Position numbers and translations under genes: made by a program
Shown: positions 4,513 to 30,032 of the stretch, in pieces
How the letters are laid out: the number at the start of each line of letters is the position of its first letter
How positions within the stretch are numbered: the stretch's first letter is position 1
Virus record (IMG/VR): IMGVR_UViG_3300025065_000014
Location: 1-42,126 of that record
Length of the DNA stretch: 42,126 bases
Reading direction: 5' to 3' (one strand)
Source of the DNA: a virus
Notes under the pieces: model-generated
The model's database searches: none
The model's input: the letters and a program-made list of their open reading frames with translations, nothing else
Told to the model about the DNA's origin: nothing

Positions 4513-5070
4513 TTATCGGGTTTCATTAATCACCCTTGTTAGTTCGTCTGTTTTTAAATATGTTATCTGACATTTTTTCAAAAATTCGTCATAACCTAAT
4601 TTCTTTAATTTTTTACAAACACTTAGGGCAATTTTGTATTTCCTTATTTCTTCCCAACAAAATCTTTTTACTATGAGTTTTCCTATAAAAGACCATTCTT
4701 TATCTGTAAAATGGTTTGTATCTTGTCGTCTTATTATTTCATAGGCGAAGTCGTGGGAGTTATAATAGTTTTTTGCGCCTCTCAAGTATGCGCCTCCCAA
4801 GTCTGCGCCTCTCAAGTCTGCGCCTCCCAAGTCTGCGCCTCCCAAGTCTGCGCCTCCCAAGTATGCGCCTCCCAAGTCTGCGCCTCCCAAGTCTGCGCCT
4901 CTCAAGTATGCGCCTCCCAAGTCTGCGCCTCTCAAGTCTGCGCCTCCCAAGTATGCGCCTCCCAAGTCTGCGCCTCTATTCTTCTCTAAACAATCTTTAA
5001 TACTTTCATACCTTCCGCAGACTAAAATTTTAGAACTATCCCAACAACTTACTATTTTAATTTCTTTCAC
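4513..5070 (-). CDS. Pentapeptide-repeat protein
   Basis: 185 residues from GTG 5068-5070, preceded by AAGGAGGATGGA. After about 30 N-terminal residues, 13 consecutive A(D/Y)L(G/R)G pentapeptides follow, then an 80-residue basic helical C-terminal domain with no repeats. Pentapeptide repeats fold as a right-handed quadrilateral beta-helix, four repeats per turn, so about three turns here. Known family members such as Qnr and MfpA mimic DNA and bind gyrase; whether this one does is an inference. The repeats are nearly identical at DNA level, which suggests recent slippage or gene conversion, and leave almost no variation at positions that usually differ between coils. Confidence 0.9.
4775..4977. 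repeat. 15-bp tandem repeat array encoding the pentapeptides
   Basis: About 13 head-to-tail copies of a 15-bp unit (on the plus strand cgcctcccaagtctg and close variants: cctctcaag for Arg codons, gtatg for Tyr). The unit length equals five codons and the array is in frame with the minus-strand gene. There are no spacers, so this is not a CRISPR array. Confidence 0.9.
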
Positions 5071-5270
5071 TCCATCCTCCTTAGTTCCTCTTCGGTTATT
5101 TGCAACTCTTCTCTCCACATCTCAATTATCATATCTTCTTTTCCCATTGAATAAGAGTATTTGTTAGTCCATATAAATGAAATACAGTAAATTAATGTTA
5201 TCGCGGCGATTATTATTCTGTATCGCCTTCTAACGCGATCTACAGGGTTATAGTATGGGCCGAGTATCAT
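5067..5270 (-). CDS. Small membrane protein, 67 residues
   Basis: ATG 5268-5270 is chosen because GTGGAG precedes it and it overlaps the upstream stop as ATGA. A basic segment (RVRRRYR) precedes one hydrophobic span ([16 protein letters not shown]), followed by an acidic helical tail ([14 protein letters not shown]). This suggests a single-span inner-membrane protein with a charged C-terminal helix. No family recognised. Confidence 0.65.
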
Positions 5271-6204: not shown

Positions 6205-6381
6205 TTACTCGGCATATTTTTTGACTTTCACAGACTTGGCTATCCTTCTTTCGATCCGTTTTAAGGCTCTTCTGAAGTTCTTTAGCTCGGATTGGTTATT
6301 GTGTGTGTATATAATTCTACAATCTCTGGGGATCGGGGCGAATTTCCTGTTTGCATAGTCAAATGCTTCAGATAATCTCAT
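6205..6381 (-). CDS. Hypothetical basic protein, 58 residues
   Basis: ATG 6379-6381 (MRLSEAFDYANRKF) is preferred to an upstream in-frame ATG inside the helicase gene because AAGGCGAAA precedes it. It overlaps the helicase stop by 14 bases. The C-terminal half is very basic (RALKRIERRIAKSVKVKK), so nucleic-acid contact is possible. No family recognised. Confidence 0.65.
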   Translation of the reverse strand: MRLSEAFDYANRKFAPIPRDCRIIYTHNNQSELKNFRRALKRIERRIAKSVKVKKYAE

Positions 6382-7243
6382 TTTTCGCCTTATAATCTTT
6401 AAATTTATAATATACAGGCTCAAAACATAACCTCACCCCATCTTGAGATTTAGTTCTACCAAAACGGTTTTTACCTATCAAAATATAATATTCATGCTTA
6501 TCTTCGCTCGCGCCATACAAATAAGGCCAATGACATAAGAATATCACATCAGCAGTTTCTTCTATCGTGCCACTTTCTTTAAGTTGGCTTATTTTAGGCT
6601 TATCTTCCCCAGCTGTTCTATTGATTTGACTTGCCACGACTATTGCTATGTTTTTTGTAATAGCAAGTTCTTTTAACTTCCTTATATACTCTGACATAGC
6701 CTCATACTTACTTCTATATCCCACAGAACTTGACATTTGAATATGGTCTATAAATATAACATCTGGTAAAGGATTTAGCTTTTCTATAAACTCCGAAAAA
6801 TCATCAAAGTTATATCCAAAGCTATCTATAATAGCCATATTGCCATCCGTAGTCATTTTATTAAATTTATCTACACCTTCTTTTAATTCATTACTTAGGT
6901 GATCCAGTTCAAATAACCCATATTTAATAAACTGCCCCATACATACAAGCCTTTGGGCTATTTCTTCTTTGGACATCTCAAGAGAGAAAAACATAACCTT
7001 ACAATGTCTATCAGAAAGATTAAAAGCCAGATTACACATAAAAGCAGTTTTACCTATACTCGACCTGCCACCTATTACATACAATCGGTTCTTCCTAATA
7101 GCACTTATAACGTTATCAATTTCACTAAAACCCGTAGAATATTTATGGTTATCCTCAGAACTCCTTAATGATATATCTTTTATAATACCTTCTGTGATCT
7201 CACCAAGAGATTGTATTCTCGGCAGTTTTTTCTCTTTTAACAT
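6368..7243 (-). CDS. DnaB-like replicative helicase (RecA-fold domain only)
   Basis: 291 residues from ATG 7241-7243, with AAGG upstream; another ATG at 7252 has no room for a ribosome binding site. Walker A, GRSSIGKT, is at 59-66. VMFFSLEMSKEEIAQRL is helicase motif H1a. Walker B is FIDHIQMS, and IVVASQINR plus ESGTIEETADVIFL are motifs H3/H4. The protein corresponds to the C-terminal DnaB domain (SF4 helicase); the N-terminal primase-interaction domain is missing, as in several phage and loader-dependent helicases. It lies just after the initiator gene. No polymerase gene is present, so it presumably recruits host replication proteins. Confidence 0.92.
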   Translation of the reverse strand: MLKEKKLPRIQSLGEITEGIIKDISLRSSEDNHKYSTGFSEIDNVISAIRKNRLYVIGGRSSIGKTAFMCNLAFNLSDRHCKVMFFSLEMSKEEIAQRLVCMGQFIKYGLFELDHLSNELKEGVDKFNKMTTDGNMAIIDSFGYNFDDFSEFIEKLNPLPDVIFIDHIQMSSSVGYRSKYEAMSEYIRKLKELAITKNIAIVVASQINRTAGEDKPKISQLKESGTIEETADVIFLCHWPYLYGASEDKHEYYILIGKNRFGRTKSQDGVRLCFEPVYYKFKDYKAKNEII

Positions 7244-7409
7244 TAAACACATCCTTTCTTATTTTTCTAACCTCGTTTAACCTTTTAAGCAGTTCTGGCC
7301 TATCCCAACAACGCGGATACAAGTAATTCTCTATCTCCTCACACATTTGGGTTATTTCTTTCCCTTGTGTAGCTAATCTATTCTCTATAGTATCTTCTTT
7401 ATTATTCAT
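7200..7409 (-). CDS. Hypothetical helical protein between initiator and helicase
   Basis: 69 residues, mostly helical (NRLATQGKEITQMCEEIENYL, LLKRLNEVRKIRKDVF), with a central YPRCWDRPEL. It overlaps the helicase start by 44 bases and the initiator stop by 8, so it is translationally embedded between the two. Its place between initiator and helicase genes suggests a helicase loader or co-factor, but it has no ATPase motif and no recognised family. Confidence 0.55.
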   Translation of the reverse strand: MNNKEDTIENRLATQGKEITQMCEEIENYLYPRCWDRPELLKRLNEVRKIRKDVFNVKREKTAENTISW

Positions 7410-8091
7410 CTGGGCGACCCCTTTTTATCTTATCTTTGTTTAGCTTATTGATCTGGCTTTGAAACACCCCTATTCCGTAATCAGAGTCTTTTATAAATTT
7501 GTCATTACTTGAAAAAAATGTATCTATTAGTTCTTTTAACCTTTCATCTGGGAGGGCGGCGCGGAGATTTTTGAAGATCTTGCCATCCTTACCGAAGTTT
7601 GCAAAGTAGTCTTTTTTAAATACTTGTTTGTAAGAGGAGTAGAAATAACTCTGGGGTGGGGGCAACACCCCTTTCTCTTTCTTTTCCTTCTTCTCTTTAT
7701 TAGTTGTGTTCGCTGGTTGTTCTTTTGTTGTTCTTTTGTTGTTCTTTTGCTGTTCATTTATACTTTCGCTATCTTGGTAAGTGCAGTAATTATTTACAGT
7801 TATAACACTAAACTTGTTGTTCGGTTTTATGTCGCAAAAATGTATACTTTTTAACAGATTCAATTTCCGGTAAACTGTAGAAGGATTTATGCCTGTAAGC
7901 ATGGCGATCTTGTCCCTGCCTGTGATAAAACTACCTCTTTTAACTACCATTTCTTCACCATTAAACACTATTTTTTTATCTTTATAATTTGCGTTAAGGA
8001 TAAGATGACAAGCTAGGTGTATTGCATAACTATCTTTACTAAACGACGTATCAAACATTTTTCTCCAGATCTTTACATAGCCACGATACAT
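7402..8091 (-). CDS. Replication initiator, winged-helix (DnaD/phage_rep_org type)
   Basis: 229 residues from ATG 8089-8091 with AAGGAG at good spacing. The N-terminal 110 residues show the winged-helix pattern of phage replication initiators (VKIWRKMF, YAIHLACHLILNAN, FITGRDKIAMLTGINPSTVYRKLNLLKS, then NNKFSVITVNNYCTYQ). A low-complexity polar linker follows (about 112-145, rich in Q, N, T, then K/E), then a C-terminal helical region that could load the helicase. Families of this layout bind the origin, often within their own gene, and recruit a DnaB-type helicase, which is encoded two genes on. The mRNA leader can form a pseudoknot and carries an overlapping small ORF. Confidence 0.8.
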   Translation of the reverse strand: MYRGYVKIWRKMFDTSFSKDSYAIHLACHLILNANYKDKKIVFNGEEMVVKRGSFITGRDKIAMLTGINPSTVYRKLNLLKSIHFCDIKPNNKFSVITVNNYCTYQDSESINEQQKNNKRTTKEQPANTTNKEKKEKKEKGVLPPPQSYFYSSYKQVFKKDYFANFGKDGKIFKNLRAALPDERLKELIDTFFSSNDKFIKDSDYGIGVFQSQINKLNKDKIKRGRPDE

Positions 8092-8185
8092 TACCACTCC
8101 TTAAAATAAGAGAGAGCCGTTCAGGAGGCAGAAAAAGAAGGTTGCCCTTCAATCGTCCCTTACTAAGCCCTCTCATTATACACAT
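8051..8185 (-). CDS. Leader ORF overlapping the initiator start, 44 codons
   Basis: ATG 8183-8185 has a perfect AAGGAGG site (8193-8199) seven bases upstream. The frame (begins MCIMRGLSKGRLKGN, basic) runs across the initiator ribosome binding site and stops 41 bases inside the initiator gene in another frame. The AAGGAGG lies inside the 5' strand of a 16-bp stem, so translation of this ORF and folding of the leader exclude each other. It may be a regulatory leader peptide or a real small protein. Confidence 0.45.
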   Translation of the reverse strand: MCIMRGLSKGRLKGNLLFLPPERLSLILRSGNVSWLCKDLEKNV

Positions 8186-8208
8186 AGAAAATCCTCCTTC
8201 TTCTGCCT
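8110..8208 (-). promoter_or_regulatory. Structured mRNA leader: predicted H-type pseudoknot before the initiator gene
   Basis: In the minus-strand transcript AGGCAGAAGAAGGAGG (8208-8193) pairs with CCTTCTTTTTCTGCCT (8141-8126): 16 bp, of which two are G-U. GAGAGGGC in its loop (8174-8167) pairs with GCTCTCTC downstream (8117-8110): 8 bp, one G-U. The order 1-2-1'-2' is that of a pseudoknot. All three non-Watson-Crick pairs are G-U wobbles in this strand and would be A-C mismatches in the other, so selection would be on the RNA. The element ends 12 bases before the AAGGAG of the initiator. The expected transcription start of the promoter at 8214-8242 falls on its first base. Confidence 0.6.
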
Positions 8209-8213
8209 AATAC

Positions 8214-8242
8214 AAGTTACACTATAAAAGGTCATTAGTCAA
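8214..8242 (-). promoter_or_regulatory. Probable promoter for initiator/helicase operon, degenerate -10
   Basis: TTGACT (8237-8242), 17 bases, then TAACTT (8214-8219). The -35 is good and the -10 weak. The region aligns with the strong promoter at 11001-11029: both contain CCTTT, two bases, then TAGTGTA(T)ACTTG, and the copy here lacks one T in the -10. The start point would be near 8207-8208, the first base of the leader stem. The -35 overlaps the stop codon of the preceding gene. Confidence 0.5.
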
Positions 8243-8473: not shown

Positions 8474-8674
8474 TTAAACCTCCAATCTGTAAGAGCAGAA
8501 AGACTTACCGTTCCTGTAAATCATCGTAGAAATAATGTCGTAGCCTTTCATTCTTAAATCACTGATACGGCTCGCTAATCTCATTACGCCCCAACGCCTA
8601 AGAGCTTCTAAGGGTGTGATCGACTTACCTTTCTTCAGGTGCGCTAAAATGCGCTTTTCCTGACTTAGTTTCAT
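8474..8674 (-). CDS. Helix-turn-helix DNA-binding protein (HTH_39-like)
   Basis: 66 residues: SQEKRILAHLKKGKSITPLEALRRWGVMRLASRISDLRMKGYDI, followed by a short wing (YRNGKSFCSYRLEV). This is the compact winged-helix pattern of small phage DNA-binding proteins (ILxxLxxGxxITPxEAxxxxGxxRLAxRIxDLRxxGYxI). ATG 8672-8674 has AAAGGAGG upstream. It overlaps the acyl carrier protein C-terminus by 50 bases. It may regulate the early operon; the operator is unknown. Confidence 0.75.
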   Translation of the reverse strand: MKLSQEKRILAHLKKGKSITPLEALRRWGVMRLASRISDLRMKGYDIISTMIYRNGKSFCSYRLEV

Positions 8675-8912
8675 GACTTACCTCCTTTTTTACAAATGTT
8701 ATCAAATCTTCCACAGTCTTAACACCTTTAACATCATCATCTATTGTGTTTAAGTTAAACTCATCTTCTACTGCTAAGATAATTTCCATTGTTTCAAGGG
8801 AGTCCGAGCCTAAATCTTCTGTTATTCGGGAATCAGGTTTTATCTCTTTATAAGGTATGGCGAGTGTGTTCGTAAGGATTATCTTTATGCGATCTTCTAC
8901 TGTTCCTGTCAT
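8625..8912 (-). CDS. Acyl carrier protein
   Basis: 95 residues from ATG 8910-8912 (AAAGAGGATAT upstream; an in-frame ATG further up lacks a site). VEDRIKIILTNTLAI, then IKPDSRITEDLGSDSLETMEIILAVEDEFNL and a final helix VEDLITFVKKEV match ACP along the whole domain. Ser38 in the DSL motif is the residue that receives 4'-phosphopantetheine. About 18 extra residues at the C-terminus arise from overlap with the HTH gene. No acyl-ACP synthase, ketosynthase or phosphopantetheinyl transferase is nearby, so it would be charged by host enzymes. It may redirect host acyl groups or act as an ACP decoy; both are guesses. Confidence 0.92.
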   Translation of the reverse strand: MTGTVEDRIKIILTNTLAIPYKEIKPDSRITEDLGSDSLETMEIILAVEDEFNLNTIDDDVKGVKTVEDLITFVKKEVSHETKSGKAHFSAPEER

Positions 8913-8987
8913 ATATCCTCTTTCTGCGGGGCGCATACTTTGGCTATTTCAAGGTCGCACTAAAACCCCATAGTTACTAACGGAACG

Positions 8988-9566
8988 CTATCCCGCCTGT
9001 GTTTCTTTTAAATTAGTTGTAATACTCTCCACTTCGCCTTTTATCCAGTCAAAGAGGTTTTTGGGGAGCTTTCCGGCATCTACGCGCATCTCTTGTTTGC
9101 GTTCTTCAAGCTGTTCAAGAGTTTCAGAATTCCTTAAATAATCAGCGATTTCGGCGGCTTTAGCCTCTTGTTCGGGGGTTGCAGGTTGTGTCCTTTGCGT
9201 CGTCCCAGACTTCTTAGCGGCGCTTGCCAAGCCCTTAGAAGGGCTGTAATAGGCCACTTTCTTAATAATACCAAAGACATTCTTATCTTCAAGGTGTATT
9301 TGGGCTTCCTTGCCGATCCATTTGGAAGTATCAAAACCCCAGGCCTCGCCTAAGTTCCGGGTGGACTTGGAGTTCAAAGATACCATTTTCTTCTTGTTGT
9401 TTATGAGAACTGTTACAGAAAAGGTGTCTTTTTTCTCCTCACCCTTTTTACCAAAGGCACTCTTTTCAAGTTTTCCGGCATCTAAGAACTTTACTACCGT
9501 TCCTTCATTAATGGATATACCTACTTTAGCAAATTCGCCTTCTGCATAATCAGTTATGTTAGGCAT
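8988..9566 (-). CDS. Putative DNA-binding (OB-fold-like) recombination protein
   Basis: 192 residues, not firmly assigned. The N-terminal 115 residues are beta-rich (GTVVKFLDAG, KKDTFSVTVLINNKKKMVSLN, WIGKEAQIHLEDKNVFGIIKKVAYY), as in phage single-strand-binding or OB-fold proteins. A low-complexity A/T/Q linker follows and a helical C-terminal domain (TLEQLEERKQEMRVDAGKLPKNLFDWIKGEVESI). The gene overlaps the start-proximal PD-(D/E)XK nuclease by 8 bases, a pairing common for phage recombination modules. ATG follows GGGAGG. Confidence 0.5.
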   Translation of the reverse strand: MPNITDYAEGEFAKVGISINEGTVVKFLDAGKLEKSAFGKKGEEKKDTFSVTVLINNKKKMVSLNSKSTRNLGEAWGFDTSKWIGKEAQIHLEDKNVFGIIKKVAYYSPSKGLASAAKKSGTTQRTQPATPEQEAKAAEIADYLRNSETLEQLEERKQEMRVDAGKLPKNLFDWIKGEVESITTNLKETQAG

Positions 9567-21740: not shown

Positions 21741-22010
21741 CTATCCAAAGAAAAACGGTTTGCTATAAGGCGGTCCGTAAGCTAGTGACACATCATCCTT
21801 CTCAAATACTATTTTTCTATGTATATTCTTCAAAATTCTCGCAGCTACTTTATCCTTATTTTTCGGTTTGTAATTCACTTTTAAACTCGGAGTTGCCGTA
21901 GCATATTCACTAACAATCATCCTCATAGCAAATGCAGCCGTAATAGCTATCTTCTTAGCCGCAGTTCCCCTGCGAGTCGATGTGATACGGCCTCGTTTCG
22001 AAGTCCCCAT
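21741..22010 (-). CDS. Hypothetical basic protein, 89 residues
   Basis: ATG 22008-22010 has GAAAGGAAG upstream. The N-terminus is very basic (MGTSKRGRITSTRRGTAAKK), then a hydrophobic helix (IAITAAFAMRMIVSEYA) and a lysine-rich section. It overlaps the end of the glycosyltransferase gene by 56 bases in another frame. Not recognised; may be a tail completion protein. Confidence 0.55.
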   Translation of the reverse strand: MGTSKRGRITSTRRGTAAKKIAITAAFAMRMIVSEYATATPSLKVNYKPKNKDKVAARILKNIHRKIVFEKDDVSLAYGPPYSKPFFFG

Positions 22011-22782
22011 ATACTTCCTTTCCTGCTTTTATGATATCCAAACTAACCAGTATGTCTACTCCGTAGGGTTTGTTCATGTCTTTGTGTTTTACTGTAGCTC
22101 TAAAAGGAAGCTTCTTCTTTAAGACTTTAGGGCATCGGGACCGCTTAAACAAAGTTACCCCTAAATTTCCCCCTGCTATCTTCTGTACCCCCCACGGCTT
22201 AGAAAAGGGTTGTATAGCTTTCGTCATCTTGATTCTTCCGTTCTTATCCAATATAGGTACTTCCCGTAAGTCCCAAAGGCCTATAACGTTTCTAAAGTGT
22301 CTACACATGATAGAACCTATTACCTCTGCCGCCTTCGGGCGCTCATCTATAATGCCTACAAACCTCTTTAGCGTGTGGGCAGGAAGAAGGATGTCATCTT
22401 CTACTGAGAATACATAATCTGTCTTTACATATTGCCAAGCGGCGTTATACATGGCCGCTATGGTATTGAGTTGCAGGATATAATTCGTGGCCCTTTTTTC
22501 CTCCGAATCTTTAGGCTTTATCTCTGAAAAAGCCAGCGGAGACATAGGGATGGAATCATCATATTTTATTATCACATCGTCATATCCTTTTAAAGCCTTG
22601 CCACATAATTCAAGCGTATTAAAGAACGCCTCATGGCCGCCGCAATACCAGACTATTCTAAGGCGATCTTTAGGATAGTCCAGGTTCTCTAAGCCATAGA
22701 GATAGTGGCTGAGACACCCAAAGCGTCCTGAGAATAGAGATACTATCGTTACTAAGGGATATTTATGCTTTTTCACGTTCAC
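21955..22782 (-). CDS. Glycosyltransferase, GT-A fold (GT2-like)
   Basis: 275 residues. N-terminal beta strand and loop YPLVTIVSLFSGRFGCL, then ENLDYPKDRLRIVWYCGG, then the metal/nucleotide-sugar motif VFSVEDDILLP (DxD-like), and a later GGNLGVTLFKRS and YGVDILVSLDIIKAG acceptor region. This is the arrangement of GT-A glycosyltransferases that use nucleotide-sugar donors. The start is GTG (NVKK next), with AGGATAGG upstream. It sits among tail genes beside a sulfotransferase and probably modifies host surface glycan or virion protein. Confidence 0.82.
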   Translation of the reverse strand: MNVKKHKYPLVTIVSLFSGRFGCLSHYLYGLENLDYPKDRLRIVWYCGGHEAFFNTLELCGKALKGYDDVIIKYDDSIPMSPLAFSEIKPKDSEEKRATNYILQLNTIAAMYNAAWQYVKTDYVFSVEDDILLPAHTLKRFVGIIDERPKAAEVIGSIMCRHFRNVIGLWDLREVPILDKNGRIKMTKAIQPFSKPWGVQKIAGGNLGVTLFKRSRCPKVLKKKLPFRATVKHKDMNKPYGVDILVSLDIIKAGKEVYGDFETRPYHIDSQGNCG

Positions 22783-22912
22783 CTATCCTGACTTTAGCCC
22801 GCCTACAGAAAGGGACTTTATACTTCGTCCCATCCTTCTCCTGGGTGTTTATAGTATAAGCAACACAAGTCTCGTTACATTCCCTAGTCTTATCGAACAT
22901 GCAGTACTTCAT
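22763..22912 (-). CDS. Small cysteine-rich protein between sulfotransferase and glycosyltransferase
   Basis: 49 residues from ATG 22910-22912, which overlaps the sulfotransferase stop as ATGA. Cysteines at CMFDKTRECNETC and again at FCRRAK could form a small metal site. The stop lies inside the start of the glycosyltransferase gene. Coupling on both sides supports translation and shared function with the two enzymes. Confidence 0.6.
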   Translation of the reverse strand: MKYCMFDKTRECNETCVAYTINTQEKDGTKYKVPFCRRAKVRIGEREKA

Positions 22913-23541
22913 TTAGCCCCCTTTATAAGCTTTGTGTCAAACTTGTCCTGTAACTCCAGAAAATCCGCCAGCTCCTTTGCCATCTTTTTAGGCTTAGACC
23001 TTAACTTCTCAAGTGTAAGGATGTGTATATTAGGTCTATCCTTTACATATTCAATGAATGAATTAACCCTGTCTATCTCAACACTTATCTTACCTAAATC
23101 CCCATGAAACCAATGTTGGCGCAGTAAGGATTTTATTATCTCCCCCTTATCCCGCTTAGTAATAACCATCTTAAAGTTAGGTAACAGTATGGGGAGGAAA
23201 TTTATCTCCTTCATATATGAATAATGCTTATCTCCAAAATACTGTATACCCTTCTTAAAATACACACATTCAAGAGACTTTCTAAGTCCAGCTGCAATAG
23301 CCTTCCTGATAGCAAGCCACTCATCAACCGTTTCAGCTGTATAAGAATATTTCTCAGGTTTAGTTTTACCTAATCGGGTGCTGTGCATATCAAGGTCTCT
23401 AAGATATGCGAGCATGGTACGGATTATCCTTTTTTCTACGGTCATGTGTATTGCAGGGTGGCTGTCCAAAAGCCTTGCTGTTATAGTCGTTCCTGTCCTA
23501 CCCATGCCTGATACTAATAATGGTTTCATATTAAGTGTCAT
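22909..23541 (-). CDS. Sulfotransferase (PAPS-dependent)
   Basis: 210 residues. The N-terminal 5'-phosphosulfate loop SGMGRTGTT (11-19) and following helix ITARLLDSHPAIHM are diagnostic. A 3'-phosphate-binding region follows (FKMVITKRDKGEIIKSLLRQHW), then the C-terminal LEKLRSKPKKMAKELADFL common to Sulfotransfer_3 enzymes. It transfers sulfate from PAPS to a hydroxyl or amino group, often of a sugar. Two starts (23541, or Met5 at 23529) are possible; neither has a clear ribosome binding site, so coupling to the fibre gene stop is likely. Together with the glycosyltransferase it suggests sulfated glycan synthesis. Confidence 0.82.
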   Translation of the reverse strand: MTLNMKPLLVSGMGRTGTTITARLLDSHPAIHMTVEKRIIRTMLAYLRDLDMHSTRLGKTKPEKYSYTAETVDEWLAIRKAIAAGLRKSLECVYFKKGIQYFGDKHYSYMKEINFLPILLPNFKMVITKRDKGEIIKSLLRQHWFHGDLGKISVEIDRVNSFIEYVKDRPNIHILTLEKLRSKPKKMAKELADFLELQDKFDTKLIKGAK

Positions 23542-26500
23542 TATACTGGCTTATCCCGTATTCGATTCTTACGCCTATAAACCTTGCATCCACACCCAAA
23601 TTATCCTGCGATACATCTCTGCCCATTCTGAAATGAACATATTCCCCTGCCGCTGGTGTTCCTGCTAATGTTACTGCACCGCTTTCAGGCGATTCGTGCA
23701 GATCGTTTGCGGTTATCAGGGTATCCAACGCTTCCCCAGCAGTCCCCCATGCCTGGTCTAAGGCATCGCTGTCAGCGTATGACCTGCCCTGTAAGTCCCA
23801 TGCTACAGTTCCCGAACCGCTTGCTGCTGTCCAGTCTACATGATATGTAATAGTTCCTGCATCCCAATTTTTAGGCATTATCAAAGAGAATTGGGCATAC
23901 TCATCCGCACCTGTGGCAAAGTCAAGAGTCTGTATATCCACATCATTCGTGCCGAGTTCTGTTTTGGTAATAGCTGAACATCCATTTGTTGTAGATGGCC
24001 ACATAGCTGTTGCAGGAACGAAGACAGATTTCTTGGGGTCAGCTCCTGCTATTTGAATGTTCGCTGCGGCATTGGCTAAACTTATATCATTACCGCTTGG
24101 AGTAATTGTAAGAAGACCATTTGTGTCTACTTCAAAATCACAATCGTCTACGCCATCCGTATGCGTTAATCTTAATTGCACATCAGTATCTAAAATTTCT
24201 AAGGCTTTATCAGGGGTTACATCTCCTATTCCTACATGATTATAGAAGTTCCAAAAAAATGCATTTACTCCGTTTGTAACAGAACCGAACTTGACATCCC
24301 TTGTGCCATCCCCTTCGAAGTATAAATCCCCAGCACTATTGTATAAGTTGGCAATAACAGCCGTCCCGTCAGGGCCTCCCATAACAAATTTATTGTTACT
24401 GTTTATTCTCAAATTACAATCAGCAAAGTCTATATTGTCAGGAGCTGGCGTAGAGTCGAAGATTATCCTTGCGTTATTTGGAGAAGCTATCCCTATCCAG
24501 TCATCATCTCCTAATGTAATATCACCATTAACATCTAATGTGGTGGCGGGGGTTGCTGTTCCTATGCCGACGTTGCCATCGTTATCAACAGTTACTTTAA
24601 CGGTATCAGACATTGCAATTTTTAATTCTGATGTACTAATTCGCATCGGCTGATAAGAACTGGCAACGCGGTCATAAGACAAAATACGTGCGTCACCTGT
24701 AGTTGTGCCAAGTTCGATTCCAGTATCGCCTGTCACAATTGTAGAAAGCGGGCTTTGAGGCGTCGTTGTCCCTATACCAACGTTACCATTATTTATTATC
24801 AAATCCCCCGAACCTACTTCTTGAGGGTCTATTACCATATCACTACCATCATAGTAAATAGACCCATCTTGAGCAGCACCTACATAGAACTTATTGGAGT
24901 CTGAATCTACCACCATATTTCCCGTAGTCCAAAGGTTTTCATCAGAGAAGTTGATCTTGCCTGTTCCACATATTATCCAAGCATCTGTTTGATTATGCAT
25001 GAACTCCAAATAGTCATTAGCCTGTGTTGCGTCACTTGAATATAGTCTAAGCTTTGGGTCAGCAGAATTGAAGCTTGGAGAACGATTAGCATTACCTAAG
25101 TCTGCTAAGTCTAGTATAGAGAAGTAACCAGAATAAGAGTCACTTGCTAAACCTAAACCTAACTGAAGATTATCAATACCTGTAGTTTCCCATACAAACT
25201 TAGAATCGGTTGTATCTCCTATCTGTAAAGCATTGTCGTCAGTTATTATTACACCATTAGTTGTAACAATACCTGTAGTGGTGTCATTTGCGTCATTAAC
25301 AAGAAAAGCATCATCTACGTTAAGAGTGTCATCAGATAAAGTACAGTTCGTGCCTCCTGCTAAGTTAGTATCATCTGATATGTCTACACCTGAGATGGAA
25401 GCTCCTGTATGCGTATGTCCTGGATCTGCACCAGAGGTTACATTGGCTCCTGTTATCGTAGTTCCCGCAACCGTTCCCGCCACTGTAAGAGTATTCGCTT
25501 CCAGTTTCATTAAATCGTCGTCATCATCTCTGCCTATATAAGATATATTGGTATCGGTCTTGAAGGTTATATAGTCATCGTTATCACCCGAAGGTCTAAT
25601 GTGTATCGTGGCGGCGTCCTGAATAAGAGGAGTATCTACTACGGCGGCTGTAAGAGTATCGGTTACGGTAGCGTCATCAGTTGAGGTAAGCTGTTCGGCT
25701 GTTACTGTGCCTGCTACAATATCTCCCCAATTTACCAACTTCAGTGAAACATCATCTATTCTAAATGTTTGCCCACCAGTAAAAGAAGTAGTTGATAATA
25801 TAAAATTACCTGGAGAGGCGGCAGTTTTAAAATAAATGGTGTGTGTGCCATCAGTTGTAACAAGAGTTTTAGCAGTTGCGGCAAAAGCTGTGGTTATCGT
25901 AGTACCAGGCGGCATGGTACCATTACTGATAGTGTATGTAAACGCATACCAGCTATCTCCGACAGCGGCAGCGGCGAAATTTGCAGAGGTTTGTGTTAAT
26001 GTCCCTGAACCCCCTGAGTGTGCATATTCGCCATAACCGCTTGTGTCGTCCCAATCACCAACTACATCCCATTTAGCATGAGTGGCAAAATCTGTCTCAG
26101 ACAAGACTTCTGATCCTAAATCTCCAGTATCCACTACATCAATAGCCGCATTAAATCGTGCATACTGATTATCAATTTCACCATACAAAATAGTAGAAGC
26201 AAAATTATCGTCATTAGCAATATAAAGTGTGTTAGAGCCTGTCTCACTTGCTCCCGCATTGTTTCCTATGCAAATGTTTCCTGCCCCTGTTACTGCATTT
26301 CCAGCGTTATAACCTACAAGCGTGTTATCATCACTGCCAGCAACATAATATCCTGTTCCGCTGCCAATGAGAGTATTCTGAGATCCTGTTGTCATATCGT
26401 CGCCAGCACCATAACCTACACAAGTGTTATTAGCACCAGTAGTTCCTGATTCTCCTGCGTAAGAACCAAGATAGGTATTACTAGTTCCGCTTGTATTTGA

Positions 26501-27283
26501 AAGACCCGCCCTATAGCCTATAAAAGTATGGTCAGAGCCAGTGGTATTCGTATCTCCTGAACTTAAACCCACAAAAGTATTTTGGGAGCCAGTAGTGGTA
26601 TTCTGACCGACTGATGTACCGATAAAAACATTACCGGCACCTTCTGTTAAATCATAGCCCGCACGGTAGCCTACTGCTACGTTATCATCTCCTATGGTAA
26701 GAGAGTTGAATACATTATAGCCTACAGCAGTATTACTGTCTGCGCCAACAGCTATCTGTGCTATTTGAGAACCTATAAATGTATTGAAGTTGTCCGAAGT
26801 ATCTACAAGAGCCTTGCCTGAGTCAGAACCTATTATAGTATTGTTGGTCGCTGTAGTTATGGAATCCCCGGCATTTTCACCTACTAAAGTGTTGTTAGTC
26901 CCCGTGGTGAGAGAATCCCCGGCATTTGGCCCTACACTAATACTCAAATTACCTGTTGTATGCAAGAAAGTAGTTCCATCTAAGGCAAGACTGCTTTGTA
27001 TGTCTAATTCTGCTGTTAAGGGGTCATTGGAAGTATCTAATCTTAAAAAATTACTACCTACTTGAGATGTGGTCATCATGTCTAAGGAAACATTTACTCC
27101 ATAGACAGTCATCATATCATTTGTAACAAATACTTTAAACGTATCTAACGAAGAAGGCGAGCCATCCTCTTCTTCGATAGATACAGCCCTATCTAAGTCT
27201 ATTAGAGTAGGCTGTAAAACAGCATACGCAGGTGAAACTACCAGTAATAAGCTAAAAAGTAGTGCTAAATATTTTTTAACCAT
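23531..27283 (-). CDS. Giant tail fibre/adhesin with signal peptide and YadA-like head repeats
   Basis: 1250 residues. A Sec signal peptide (MVKKYLALLFSLLLVVSPAYA) starts the protein. Residues about 113-350 hold some 14 repeats of the form NTxxGxxAGxxxTTGxxN, the left-handed beta-roll of YadA-type trimeric adhesins. Further on are NGNVGIGTTTP and DNDGNVGIGTATPATTLDVNG, typical of phage and adhesin shafts, with GHTHTGASISG, a His/Gly collar motif of fibres. The last 150 residues are beta-rich. It is the largest gene and likely the host-recognition fibre. The signal peptide is unexpected for a cytoplasm-assembled tail. Confidence 0.75.
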   Translation of the reverse strand: MVKKYLALLFSLLLVVSPAYAVLQPTLIDLDRAVSIEEEDGSPSSLDTFKVFVTNDMMTVYGVNVSLDMMTTSQVGSNFLRLDTSNDPLTAELDIQSSLALDGTTFLHTTGNLSISVGPNAGDSLTTGTNNTLVGENAGDSITTATNNTIIGSDSGKALVDTSDNFNTFIGSQIAQIAVGADSNTAVGYNVFNSLTIGDDNVAVGYRAGYDLTEGAGNVFIGTSVGQNTTTGSQNTFVGLSSGDTNTTGSDHTFIGYRAGLSNTSGTSNTYLGSYAGESGTTGANNTCVGYGAGDDMTTGSQNTLIGSGTGYYVAGSDDNTLVGYNAGNAVTGAGNICIGNNAGASETGSNTLYIANDDNFASTILYGEIDNQYARFNAAIDVVDTGDLGSEVLSETDFATHAKWDVVGDWDDTSGYGEYAHSGGSGTLTQTSANFAAAAVGDSWYAFTYTISNGTMPPGTTITTAFAATAKTLVTTDGTHTIYFKTAASPGNFILSTTSFTGGQTFRIDDVSLKLVNWGDIVAGTVTAEQLTSTDDATVTDTLTAAVVDTPLIQDAATIHIRPSGDNDDYITFKTDTNISYIGRDDDDDLMKLEANTLTVAGTVAGTTITGANVTSGADPGHTHTGASISGVDISDDTNLAGGTNCTLSDDTLNVDDAFLVNDANDTTTGIVTTNGVIITDDNALQIGDTTDSKFVWETTGIDNLQLGLGLASDSYSGYFSILDLADLGNANRSPSFNSADPKLRLYSSDATQANDYLEFMHNQTDAWIICGTGKINFSDENLWTTGNMVVDSDSNKFYVGAAQDGSIYYDGSDMVIDPQEVGSGDLIINNGNVGIGTTTPQSPLSTIVTGDTGIELGTTTGDARILSYDRVASSYQPMRISTSELKIAMSDTVKVTVDNDGNVGIGTATPATTLDVNGDITLGDDDWIGIASPNNARIIFDSTPAPDNIDFADCNLRINSNNKFVMGGPDGTAVIANLYNSAGDLYFEGDGTRDVKFGSVTNGVNAFFWNFYNHVGIGDVTPDKALEILDTDVQLRLTHTDGVDDCDFEVDTNGLLTITPSGNDISLANAAANIQIAGADPKKSVFVPATAMWPSTTNGCSAITKTELGTNDVDIQTLDFATGADEYAQFSLIMPKNWDAGTITYHVDWTAASGSGTVAWDLQGRSYADSDALDQAWGTAGEALDTLITANDLHESPESGAVTLAGTPAAGEYVHFRMGRDVSQDNLGVDARFIGVRIEYGISQYNDT

Positions 27284-27933
27284 ATCTTATTCCAAGTAAT
27301 TTTAGTATGACATTTAATACACAAAGTTATTAAATTTTCTGGATTCAAATTATTTTTATCCTTATCAATATGATGAATATGCAATTTTTTTAAACATTCT
27401 ATTTCAGGAGTACCACATATTTGGCATTTATAATTATCTCGTTGTCTAATGGACTCTTTTAACATTTTAGTCCATCCAAAGGGATAGGGTTTTTTACTTA
27501 TTCCACCTTTCCAAAGAGGATGTTCTTTACCGTTTTTAAACTGTCCACCTTTAATTACTTTTTTCTTTTGAGCTATAGCCATACATTTTTTGGAACAATA
27601 TTTTCTATTATGTCCTGTTTTATTAGGAAATTCAGTATTGCAAATAGGGCAAGTCCAAAAATCAGGGTATTTTTTATTCCATGCTTTCATTACTCCTTTG
27701 GTTCCTTTGTTCCAAGGAATATGATTTTTCTTAAACCAAAATTCCTTATTTGGAGCTTCATTGTTTCTTTTTTTAGCTGCTCTTATTTTTTCTATTGTTT
27801 CTTGACTCCTTTTTTTACCATGCCAATGGGCGTAACCCGTTTTAATACCCTTATTCCAAGGTTTTTTACCTTTTGAAGATATACTCATTTTTTTCTTTGA
27901 CTCTAATGTGTGTTTTTTATTTAACATTGTCAT
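27265..27933 (-). CDS. HNH homing endonuclease with NUMOD3-like repeats
   Basis: 222 residues. The N-terminal part has NUMOD3-like DNA-binding repeats: HTLESKKKMSISSKGKKPWNKG, GKKRSQETIEKIRAAKK and WNKGTKG. A zinc finger follows (CPICNTEF, YCSKKC) and then the HNH nuclease with CQICG, HIHHIDKDKNNLNPENL and CIKCH. NUMOD3 plus HNH is typical of homing endonucleases. It lies between a small fibre-associated gene and the giant fibre, overlapping the latter's signal peptide start by 19 bases. It is a mobile gene inserted between tail genes. AT content is higher than its neighbours. Confidence 0.88.
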   Translation of the reverse strand: MTMLNKKHTLESKKKMSISSKGKKPWNKGIKTGYAHWHGKKRSQETIEKIRAAKKRNNEAPNKEFWFKKNHIPWNKGTKGVMKAWNKKYPDFWTCPICNTEFPNKTGHNRKYCSKKCMAIAQKKKVIKGGQFKNGKEHPLWKGGISKKPYPFGWTKMLKESIRQRDNYKCQICGTPEIECLKKLHIHHIDKDKNNLNPENLITLCIKCHTKITWNKIWLKNI

Positions 27934-27936
27934 ATA

Positions 27937-28245
27937 TTAAAATGTCGCAGAAAACGAATTATACGACTCCGCTACACGATTGGCCCAGTCATAACCACTT
28001 GAACCAGCCGCGTAAGTATGAGTAGTCTCACTGCTTGATATTACACTTCTACGAATAAACCACGCACCGTCCGCATTCAAATATCCGTAATAAGATGTAG
28101 TTCCGAGTTCCTGGTCTGAGATATGATACCCTTCCAAAGGTTGAAGGACATTACGAACCCGTAAATCCCTCTTAGTGCCGTTTTGTTCAGAGGCTAAATC
28201 GTTAAAAAACTCCTCTACACTCCTATTGTCCCCATCTCCAGCCAT
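27937..28245 (-). CDS. Small tail/fibre-associated phage protein, 102 residues
   Basis: Begins MAGDGDNRSVEEFFNDLASEQNG. Then RVRNVLQPLEGYHISDQE, TSYYGYLNADGAWFIRRS and HTYAAGSSGYDWANRVAESYNSF. The pattern LNADGAWFIRR...Y.AG...Y..W..R....Y..F occurs in short phage proteins next to tail fibre genes. Its ATG overlaps the preceding stop by one base. Exact role unknown. Confidence 0.6.
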   Translation of the reverse strand: MAGDGDNRSVEEFFNDLASEQNGTKRDLRVRNVLQPLEGYHISDQELGTTSYYGYLNADGAWFIRRSVISSSETTHTYAAGSSGYDWANRVAESYNSFSATF

Positions 28246-28853
28246 TATTTAGCCTTTAATCTTTTCTTTTCTAACTTTACACTTTTTTCTTTGATCTGCA
28301 CGTTTAACTGTTCTTCGTTTAATTTATTCTCTCGTTCAGATACCCTCATTTCCCTGTTATCCAATGACTTATCCCTTAGATCAAGCCTGTGTTGCCTATC
28401 GTCAAGTTCAGCTTTACGAGTGTTTAGACTATCTTCGTCTTTTTTGAGCAATTTCAATTTATTATCATGTGCAGTAATTTTCTCGGATAACTTACGACTT
28501 TTTTCCTCCTGTTTTTCCTGTTCTATCTTAGCGCCTTCTAAATGCTTTTCGGCTTTCTTCTTTAACTTTTCAACGTCAGATTTAAGTGCTTCAAATTTCT
28601 CGAACTCTCTTTGTGTCTTATCCTGGGATTTTTGGAGTTCATTCTTTTGATCGTAGATTTCGGCATAACGGTCTTTCAGCTTATTCTCGTTTTCATCTGT
28701 TAAATCTCTTAATTCCTGCCGTTCTTTCTGTATAGCGGTATTAAAGTTTTCATAGTTCTTTATCTCTTTTTTTAAAATATTTTCAACGTCTTTAAGTCCT
28801 TCTACAAACTTATCCGATACAAACTTAATCTTATTCAATACTTCCTGTTTCAT
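28245..28853 (-). CDS. Long coiled-coil protein
   Basis: 202 residues almost entirely in charged heptad repeats (Lys, Glu, Leu), for example LKKKAEKHLEGAKIEQEKQ and LDDRQHRLDLRDKSLDNREM. No signal or membrane segment. Long coiled coils in tail regions can be tape-measure-like, chaperone or fibre-linker proteins. At this length a short-tail role is likelier than a long tape measure. AAGATC precedes the ATG, with GAGAAG as ribosome binding site. Confidence 0.65.
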   Translation of the reverse strand: MKQEVLNKIKFVSDKFVEGLKDVENILKKEIKNYENFNTAIQKERQELRDLTDENENKLKDRYAEIYDQKNELQKSQDKTQREFEKFEALKSDVEKLKKKAEKHLEGAKIEQEKQEEKSRKLSEKITAHDNKLKLLKKDEDSLNTRKAELDDRQHRLDLRDKSLDNREMRVSERENKLNEEQLNVQIKEKSVKLEKKRLKAK

Positions 28854-28862
28854 GATCTTCTC

Positions 28863-30032
28863 CTATTCTGTAAGTTGCACCTCTAAGAGGGCGCAAAGTG
28901 GTATGATAAAAACGACAAATCTTGAAAGGAACATTGGGAAATTCCCTATGCTTATAAACAACACCGCAACTACAACCCCAGCTAAACCTAGAGTATTAGG
29001 CTCTTTTATAGCCCTTTTAAACCATAGAGTTAATTGCCTTAAATAGCCAAAGAATATAATCAAACCAATAATACCGAACTCAAATGCCATAGATATATAC
29101 AAGTTATGAGGGTTATCCCATAAGGCCGCGCCAGCTCCATCAGGTGCGCCCATAGCAAATATAAAGTTCTTATGTGGTAGATCATTCCTTCTGAAAGAAT
29201 CAAGCCCCCATCCTATAAAAGGATGGACATTCAAACAGTTTATTGTTTTTAACCATACATCAAACCTCTCAAATCCAGGCTTATCTATATGAAAATAATA
29301 AGCAAGACAAGCTAAAATACAACCTATTAAGACAACAAAAAATACCCATCTTTTAACCCTGAAAAATAAAATAAACAAAAAAACCACACCCGCAGCGATC
29401 GTATTCGTAAACGATCTAGCTATAAATAAAGGTATGAACATCAAAGCTCCAAGCCATATACTTCTGCGAGTAGCAATTAAAGGAATAGCTATTACTATTA
29501 ACATACCCATCCATGCCTCATTCAACATAAATCCACCTGGATGGGTATTCTGAACCAAAGCAAATTTGCCGACTGATGTAACAGCATTTGAAAATATGTA
29601 ATCTTTTCCCGTAACCTGAAGTATACAATACGACAAGTTAAGGAACACAAACCACAAGAATATCTTAATATAGAAATCAATATGTTCTTTTTTAAATGAT
29701 AATTTAGTAAGATAATAAAGTATCATACCGGAAAATATATTAGCGGCATAAATCTGACCAAATTGACACCTATATAAACCAAATAATATCAAAGTCCATG
29801 CTGAAAATAACATCACCCAGATATTATCTATTATTAACGTAAATAGAGCCATAACACCAAGATTAAATATCATTTGCTGGGATATGCGCGGTTCTTGCCC
29901 GTATAATTGAAATATCGTAGCAAACATAAATGATGCTATAAGTAAACGGAGTATTTTGGGGGTATCTACTGCGACATTGACATAAGGAAGGCGCATCTTA
30001 GGCAATATCAATCTTGGTATTTTAAACCTCAT
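28863..30032 (-). CDS. O-antigen ligase/polymerase-like membrane protein (Wzy/WaaL)
   Basis: 389 residues with about ten hydrophobic spans. The large outer loop holds HPFIGWGLDSFRR and DNPHNLYISMAFEFGIIGLIIFFGYL, the conserved PHN-L...EFG-IGL signature of the Wzy_C (PF04932) family of O-antigen ligases and polymerases. These act in the inner membrane, periplasmic face, on lipid-linked glycans. In a phage, such an enzyme would modify host O-antigen or capsule, for instance to block re-infection. It sits between the adaptor and coiled-coil genes in the structural operon. Its ATG overlaps the adaptor stop by 4 bases. Confidence 0.82.
   Translation of the reverse strand: MRFKIPRLILPKMRLPYVNVAVDTPKILRLLIASFMFATIFQLYGQEPRISQQMIFNLGVMALFTLIIDNIWVMLFSAWTLILFGLYRCQFGQIYAANIFSGMILYYLTKLSFKKEHIDFYIKIFLWFVFLNLSYCILQVTGKDYIFSNAVTSVGKFALVQNTHPGGFMLNEAWMGMLIVIAIPLIATRRSIWLGALMFIPLFIARSFTNTIAAGVVFLFILFFRVKRWVFFVVLIGCILACLAYYFHIDKPGFERFDVWLKTINCLNVHPFIGWGLDSFRRNDLPHKNFIFAMGAPDGAGAALWDNPHNLYISMAFEFGIIGLIIFFGYLRQLTLWFKRAIKEPNTLGLAGVVVAVLFISIGNFPMFLSRFVVFIIPLCALLEVQLTE

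Follow-up and report, generated by a model that had tools for sequence, protein, structure and literature searches.

Which role could two long, crossing RNA helices play directly upstream of a phage replication initiator gene? The question is raised by the minus strand of the window, as we call the whole stretch analysed here (42,126 nucleotides of the IMG/VR record IMGVR_UViG_3300025065_000014, a stand-alone virus contig). The leader and its surroundings contain the following features.

6368..7252, minus strand: DnaB-type helicase gene, downstream of the initiator
7402..8091, minus strand: lambda-O-like / DnaD-like replication initiator gene
7707..7761, no strand assigned: four 11-bp iteron-like repeats in the initiator gene, probable origin
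8051..8185, minus strand: 44-codon open reading frame, putatively coding, with its ribosome-binding site in stem 1 and overlapping the initiator start
8103..8109, minus strand: T-rich tract TTATTTT directly 3' of b', terminator-like with stem 2
8110..8118, minus strand: segment b', 3' arm of stem 2, with the 8-bp part GCUCUCUC (8117-8110)
8126..8141, minus strand: segment a', 3' arm of stem 1, within the loop of stem 2, CCUUCUUUUUCUGCCU
8137..8150, minus strand: local terminator-like hairpin GAAGG-GCAA-CCTTC, followed by TTTTT
8166..8174, minus strand: segment b, 5' arm of stem 2, with the 8-bp part GAGAGGGC (8174-8167)
8193..8208, minus strand: segment a, 5' arm of stem 1, containing AAGGAGG (8199-8193), AGGCAGAAGAAGGAGG
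8214..8242, minus strand: weak promoter-like sequence, TTGACT, 17 nt, TAACTT; also TATAGT at 8226-8221

Relatives of the initiator are annotated as O or as DnaD-like loader, a DnaB gene is its neighbour and iterons lie within the gene, which together mark it as lambda-O-like; the protein itself has no Pfam match. By analogy with lambda O, the iteron-like repeats at 7707-7761 are likely to be the replication origin. The replication region of the window has no DNA match in the phage collection, and neither an integrase nor an HTH_3 repressor was found in the window, a record that may be incomplete.

Crossing helices in the window leader

The two interleaved stems of the original prediction are borne out. 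Stem 1 (8208-8193/8141-8126) comprises 16 bp with two G-U pairs and a 51-nt loop, and stem 2 (8174-8167/8117-8110) comprises 8 bp with one G-U pair and can be extended by a ninth, a second G-U (U8166-G8118); the arms follow each other in the interleaved order a-b-a'-b'. Among helices with G-U pairs allowed, stem 1 ranks first in the whole 42 kb record on both strands. We scored crossing helices by the summed stacking energies of two interleaved helices, without loop terms. By this measure the window leader reaches -47.2 kcal/mol, the top value of 3,360 windows of 150 nt, while the next unrelated place in the record scores -36.9. Dinucleotide shuffling did not attain the leader's value in any of 5,000 trials. 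A chance origin of the pairing is ruled out by the shuffles together with the genome rank. The nested minimum free energy of the whole leader is unexceptional (z about 0), because the stems cross and nested folding counts just one of them. Taken with the anatomy shared by other leaders, these statistics make the structure well supported. The argument that departures from Watson-Crick pairing appear as G-U in the transcribed RNA, and hence favour function at the RNA level, is true of this leader, but it concerns only three pairs and proves little.

The 3' half of the leader resembles an intrinsic terminator. Stem 2, with a stacking energy of about -18 kcal/mol, is followed by UUAUUUU, in agreement with the pattern of a GC-rich stem and a U-rich tract; the 8 nt after b' read TTATTTTA, with T in 6 of 8. 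The U tract is interrupted, and the putative terminator loop of about 47 nt is long for an intrinsic terminator. Only 7 nt separate a' from b'. With so short a spacer, and with the remaining loops long, stacking of the two helices at the a'-b' junction is conceivable.

Two further elements of the leader had been proposed upstream of the initiator. A promoter starting transcription on the first base of stem 1 now appears weak: TTGACT (8242-8237) has just TAACTT at a distance of 17 nt, the better -10-like sequence TATAGT (8226-8221) is without a -35, and the promoter scan lists no sigma-70-type promoter at 8242-8208. The small open reading frame is present: AAGGAGG (8199-8193), inside stem 1, precedes the ATG of the 44 codons by 7 nt, and the frame (8185-8051) runs over the initiator start, with the initiator ATG at 8091-8089 and its own AAGGAG at 8102-8097. 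It is not, however, a general part of such leaders, a comparable short frame being absent from the other significant leaders described below, except for one of 26 codons in L063. Its translation could be an extra input in the window phage, by analogy with IsrK-orf45-anrP of Gifsy-1 (PMC4825925).

The same layout in unrelated replication leaders

Is this arrangement peculiar to one phage? A close relative of the window leader was not found in DNA, protein, pattern and initiator-alignment scans. Scans with single proteins (the initiator, DnaB and the product of 8988-9566) returned next to nothing, no match was obtained when stem 1 was searched for directly as a pattern, and a pattern for the leader of L013/L015 matched L015 alone. 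Distant phage O proteins diverge too much for their alignment to be of use in scanning, and a genome scan with a two-sequence initiator alignment returned no relative. Two-sequence and six-sequence initiator alignments did work in viral contigs, and the scans with initiator alignments yielded 70 viral loci and later 80 viral and 8 genomic loci; the comparison set amounts to about 150 relatives of the lambda-O-like initiator. The claim that the leader belongs to no known RNA class holds, in that no Rfam 15 family exceeds its gathering threshold in the window leader or in the leaders of the relatives.

In many of these phages, unrelated sequences share one anatomy, in which a-b-a'-b' is followed by a T tract and then by the gene. 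We scored the 150 nt before each initiator and grouped the loci by whether at least 94 nt of non-coding sequence precede the initiator. Strong interleaved pairing occurs mainly where this gap is present, whereas initiators abutting an upstream gene score as shuffled sequence does, with few exceptions. The score is reached by none of 200 shuffles in the window, L013, L016/L057, L025, L029, L056, L063/L065 and L066; pairing is weaker in L015, L010, L072 and L053/L054, and not significant in L026. Over the first sets of loci, p < 0.01 was found for 18 of 59 initiator leaders against 14 of 135 other intergenic leaders. Most of the strong cases among the others (L028, L046, L067, L091, L107, L118, L070, L035, L134) carry the layout before a gene situated earlier in the same cluster, so that it sometimes stands one or more genes ahead of the initiator, and several of these upstream leaders directly follow a TAnnTTTG-type promoter-like sequence. 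The element is therefore a feature of the replication operon's head rather than strictly of the initiator. A few controls (L044, L082, L106) are not accounted for in this way.

The 34 significant leaders fall into 17 sequence clusters by blastn. Their a'-b' spacer is mostly 5-11 nt long and b' mostly lies 10-26 nt before the next gene. In most leaders at least six of the 8 nt after b' are T; counted by cluster, this holds for 8 of the 17, against 4% expected by position, while L025 and L056 have strong pseudoknots without a T tract after the scored b'. Closest to the window in dimensions is L091, a near relative by its initiator, with a of 18 bp, b of 12, L2 of 27 and L3 of 10, and then TATTTTATAAGGAG. 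The window leader shows the same combination, with interleaved helices beyond the shuffles, a short spacer, a T-rich tract and the gene some 20 nt on (18 nt from b'). Layout, statistics and position thus suggest, from the sequence, that it belongs to this group.

Some other leaders are of interest in their own right. In L056:2335-2485, TTGGTCGGTT has two potential partners, AACCGACCA upstream of it and TTTAACCGACCGA directly ahead of the initiator start, and the alternatives possibly form a two-state switch. A second related leader class, A5 (L028, L046, L058, L059, L061, L067), has the form CAATCAA ... AGTAGG-a'-CCGAAAG at about 0.4-1.9 kb upstream of the initiator, and its loops are kept while the stems differ. 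In P22/mEp235-type phages (L006:700-830; L171) interleaved helices lie within orf48, ahead of gene 18/O, and L171 shows one compensatory change. This leader was dropped as evidence, being coding (DUF2740), devoid of a T tract and of little variation.

Covariation in a flavobacterial-type class

Compensatory changes had been named as a check, and they were found in comparable leaders of related phages. A class of 32 flavobacterial-type phage leaders, which include L094, L098, L112, L141 and L160, aligns well (alignment A4); the element also occurs at L176:2133-2230. The class heads replication operons, is absent from Rfam and is characterized by the promoter TAnnTTTG, a hairpin P1, kissing loops and a terminator. 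A covariation scan that assumed no structure returned as its top pairs four helices: P1 around a, a/a', c around a', and b/b'. With the full structure 94.8% of cells are paired, compared with 68.6% after shuffling, and the double-changed cells number 217 compared with 60. Changes on both sides are seen in 24 of the 27 pairs, and in 7 of the 8 pairs of the pseudoknot a/a'. The covariation score is 0.750 against 0.225 for shuffled alignments, and the signal is lost when partners are slid by 1-3 columns. Since every helix covaries, a/a' among them, a kissing-loop or pseudoknot terminator exists in this class.

A covariance model of the class, R1, built without the pseudoknot, matches the leader of Cellulophaga phage phi18:3, which lay outside the training set (E 3.5e-9). 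In the window it finds no match in the leader, its best score being 12 bits elsewhere. Both the class and the window leader have the a-b-a'-b' order and the T tract, and both head an O-type replication operon. Unlike the window leader, with its a of 16 bp and no clear P1 or c, the class carries a short a of about 8 bp in the loop of the P1 hairpin and a stem c around a', which form kissing loops. Because no close homologue was found and the R1 model does not match, the link between them is one of layout, compatible with common descent as well as with convergence.

Cultured phages carry the layout as well. In Cellulophaga phages phi46:3, phi13:2 and phi19:3 and in Flavobacterium phage morran9-1 the leader score is reached by 0-1 of 1,000 shuffles. 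The three Cellulophaga phages have 33 nt of promoter region in common with phi18:3 and continue into a different leader of the same layout, and morran9-1 has yet another. The sister Cellulophaga phages L176, L180, L181 and L182 combine the shared 33-nt promoter region and a common layout with unrelated leader RNAs, as if the leader were a module exchanged between them.

A candidate attenuator and its alternatives

What could such a leader do? Our preferred reading, which we hold with some reserve, is that the window leader is a pseudoknotted intrinsic terminator, or attenuator, before the initiator that would gate readthrough into the replication genes. Stem 2 and the U-rich tract would make up the terminator, at a distance of about 20 nt from the initiator gene, and its loop would be captured by segment a, which lies upstream and would pair with a'. 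The state of a:a' pairing at the moment b' emerges would then set the share of transcripts reading through into the initiator and helicase genes. Stem 1 might also act in the window as an antiterminator of the local hairpin 8150-8137 with its UUUUU, because that hairpin shares bases with a' and excludes stem 1. We infer that b/b' would terminate, that a:a' would modulate and that replication would thereby be controlled. The recurrence of one layout in unrelated sequences at the heads of replication operons points to transcription attenuation as the likely level, and for the window leader we tend, from sequence features, slightly towards attenuation. The proposal of a pseudoknot leader controlling the initiator thus stands as to the RNA-level pseudoknot, and is recast, in view of stem 2 and UUAUUUU, as transcription attenuation.

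Neighbouring solutions are known from other replicons. In the plasmid ColIb-P9 (IncI-alpha) the leader of the replication initiator gene repYZ reportedly contains a pseudoknot and an upstream small open reading frame; control there is translational and set by antisense RNA, whereas in the window the T tract points to transcription and the small frame is not shared. Attenuators of the pT181 type are said to place a conditional terminator upstream of a plasmid initiator gene, with a countertranscript driving alternative hairpins, while in the window leader an upstream segment forms a pseudoknot with the terminator loop itself. The leader of T4 gene 32 is a pseudoknot in the mRNA of a phage replication protein that serves translational autoregulation; it resembles the window leader in having a pseudoknot before a phage replication gene, and differs in being without a terminator.

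Translational control of the ColIb-P9 repYZ or T4 gene 32 kind would have the pseudoknot and the small frame set ribosome access to the initiator: stem 1 would hide the ribosome site of the small frame, and translation across the initiator start would switch the initiator on or off. The strong Shine-Dalgarno sequence in stem 1, the ATG and the 44 codons overlapping the initiator start are all of the kind expected, b' adjoins the initiator ribosome site, and IsrK-orf45-anrP provides a prophage precedent (PMC4825925). We nevertheless regard this reading as unlikely, given that the comparable frame is missing elsewhere apart from the 26 codons of L063 and that T tracts, unneeded for control of translation, are common after b'. 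Immunity or copy control of the P4 type, in which a short leader RNA would act in trans, its a pairing with the a' of newly made transcripts so that transcription of the replication operon stops early, seems less probable again. In P4, RNA-RNA pairing in the untranslated leader (CI RNA, seqA, seqC) decides the premature termination of the replication operon (PMC4825925), and the window leader is similar in linking leader pairing to termination, predicted in this case, in a replication operon. The strong divergence of a/a' among related phages, even between sister Cellulophaga phages with the same promoter region, would also be in keeping with immunity. Unlike in P4, however, the complementary segments of the window both belong to a single short leader and the terminator loop contains one of them, and neither a nor a' has another copy or complement of at least 11 nt on either strand of the 42 kb record, a result that leaves room for the leader RNA itself to act in trans. 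Most records are also without lysogeny genes: 23 of 25, the window included, lack an integrase and HTH_3 repressors are few, although many of the records are partial. The R1 class, too, is absent from 297 Bacteroidota genomes; it was likewise not found in a further 4, and an empty answer in these sets proves little. Lysogenic immunity as a general role was ranked low for the few signs of lysogeny, though the four Cellulophaga phages have an integrase-family gene.

The two remaining readings fare worse. One takes stem 2 for a normal terminator serving the gene upstream, and stem 1 for a pairing that arose by chance or has no connection with it. This would suit an upstream frame that ends at 8239 and a region with further terminator-like hairpins; with stems 1 and 2 together reached by 0 of 5,000 shuffles, and a/a' covarying as strongly as the terminator in the 32-leader class, we consider it very improbable. 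Least probable in our estimation is a ligand-sensing riboswitch with a pseudoknot aptamer. Several known riboswitch classes are pseudoknots, and the unpaired bases of the 32-leader class are more conserved than its stems. The other leader clusters, however, share the layout and not the loop sequences, Rfam gives no match and the genes directly downstream differ.

To return to the attenuator, the leader probably represents an RNA switch on phage replication that has gone unrecorded. We lean, by a little, towards a widespread kind of phage leader, likewise unrecorded, whose upstream segment captures a terminator loop as a pseudoknot or by kissing loops; it would be a gate on replication made of RNA only, and would change so fast that sister phages with one promoter have unrelated versions. 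No description of a pseudoknot or kissing terminator in phage replication leaders was found in the open-licence literature. If the proposal is true, phage DNA replication has a common and compact RNA gate that escaped notice, since its sequence varies between lineages and nested folding misses pseudoknots; the terminator-loop pseudoknot would join the known attenuators and offer a handle on the timing of phage replication. As cultured Cellulophaga and Flavobacterium phages carry the layout, the proposal can be tested at once.

Further features lie elsewhere in the window. An acyl-carrier-protein-like gene (Pfam PP-binding; 8625-8936, minus strand) lies in the phage early region. By eye, we also noted a pentapeptide-repeat-like protein with GADLGGAYL repeats (4513-5118, minus strand) and, among the structural genes, open reading frames resembling a glycosyltransferase, a sulfotransferase and an O-antigen ligase (21955-30032, minus strand).
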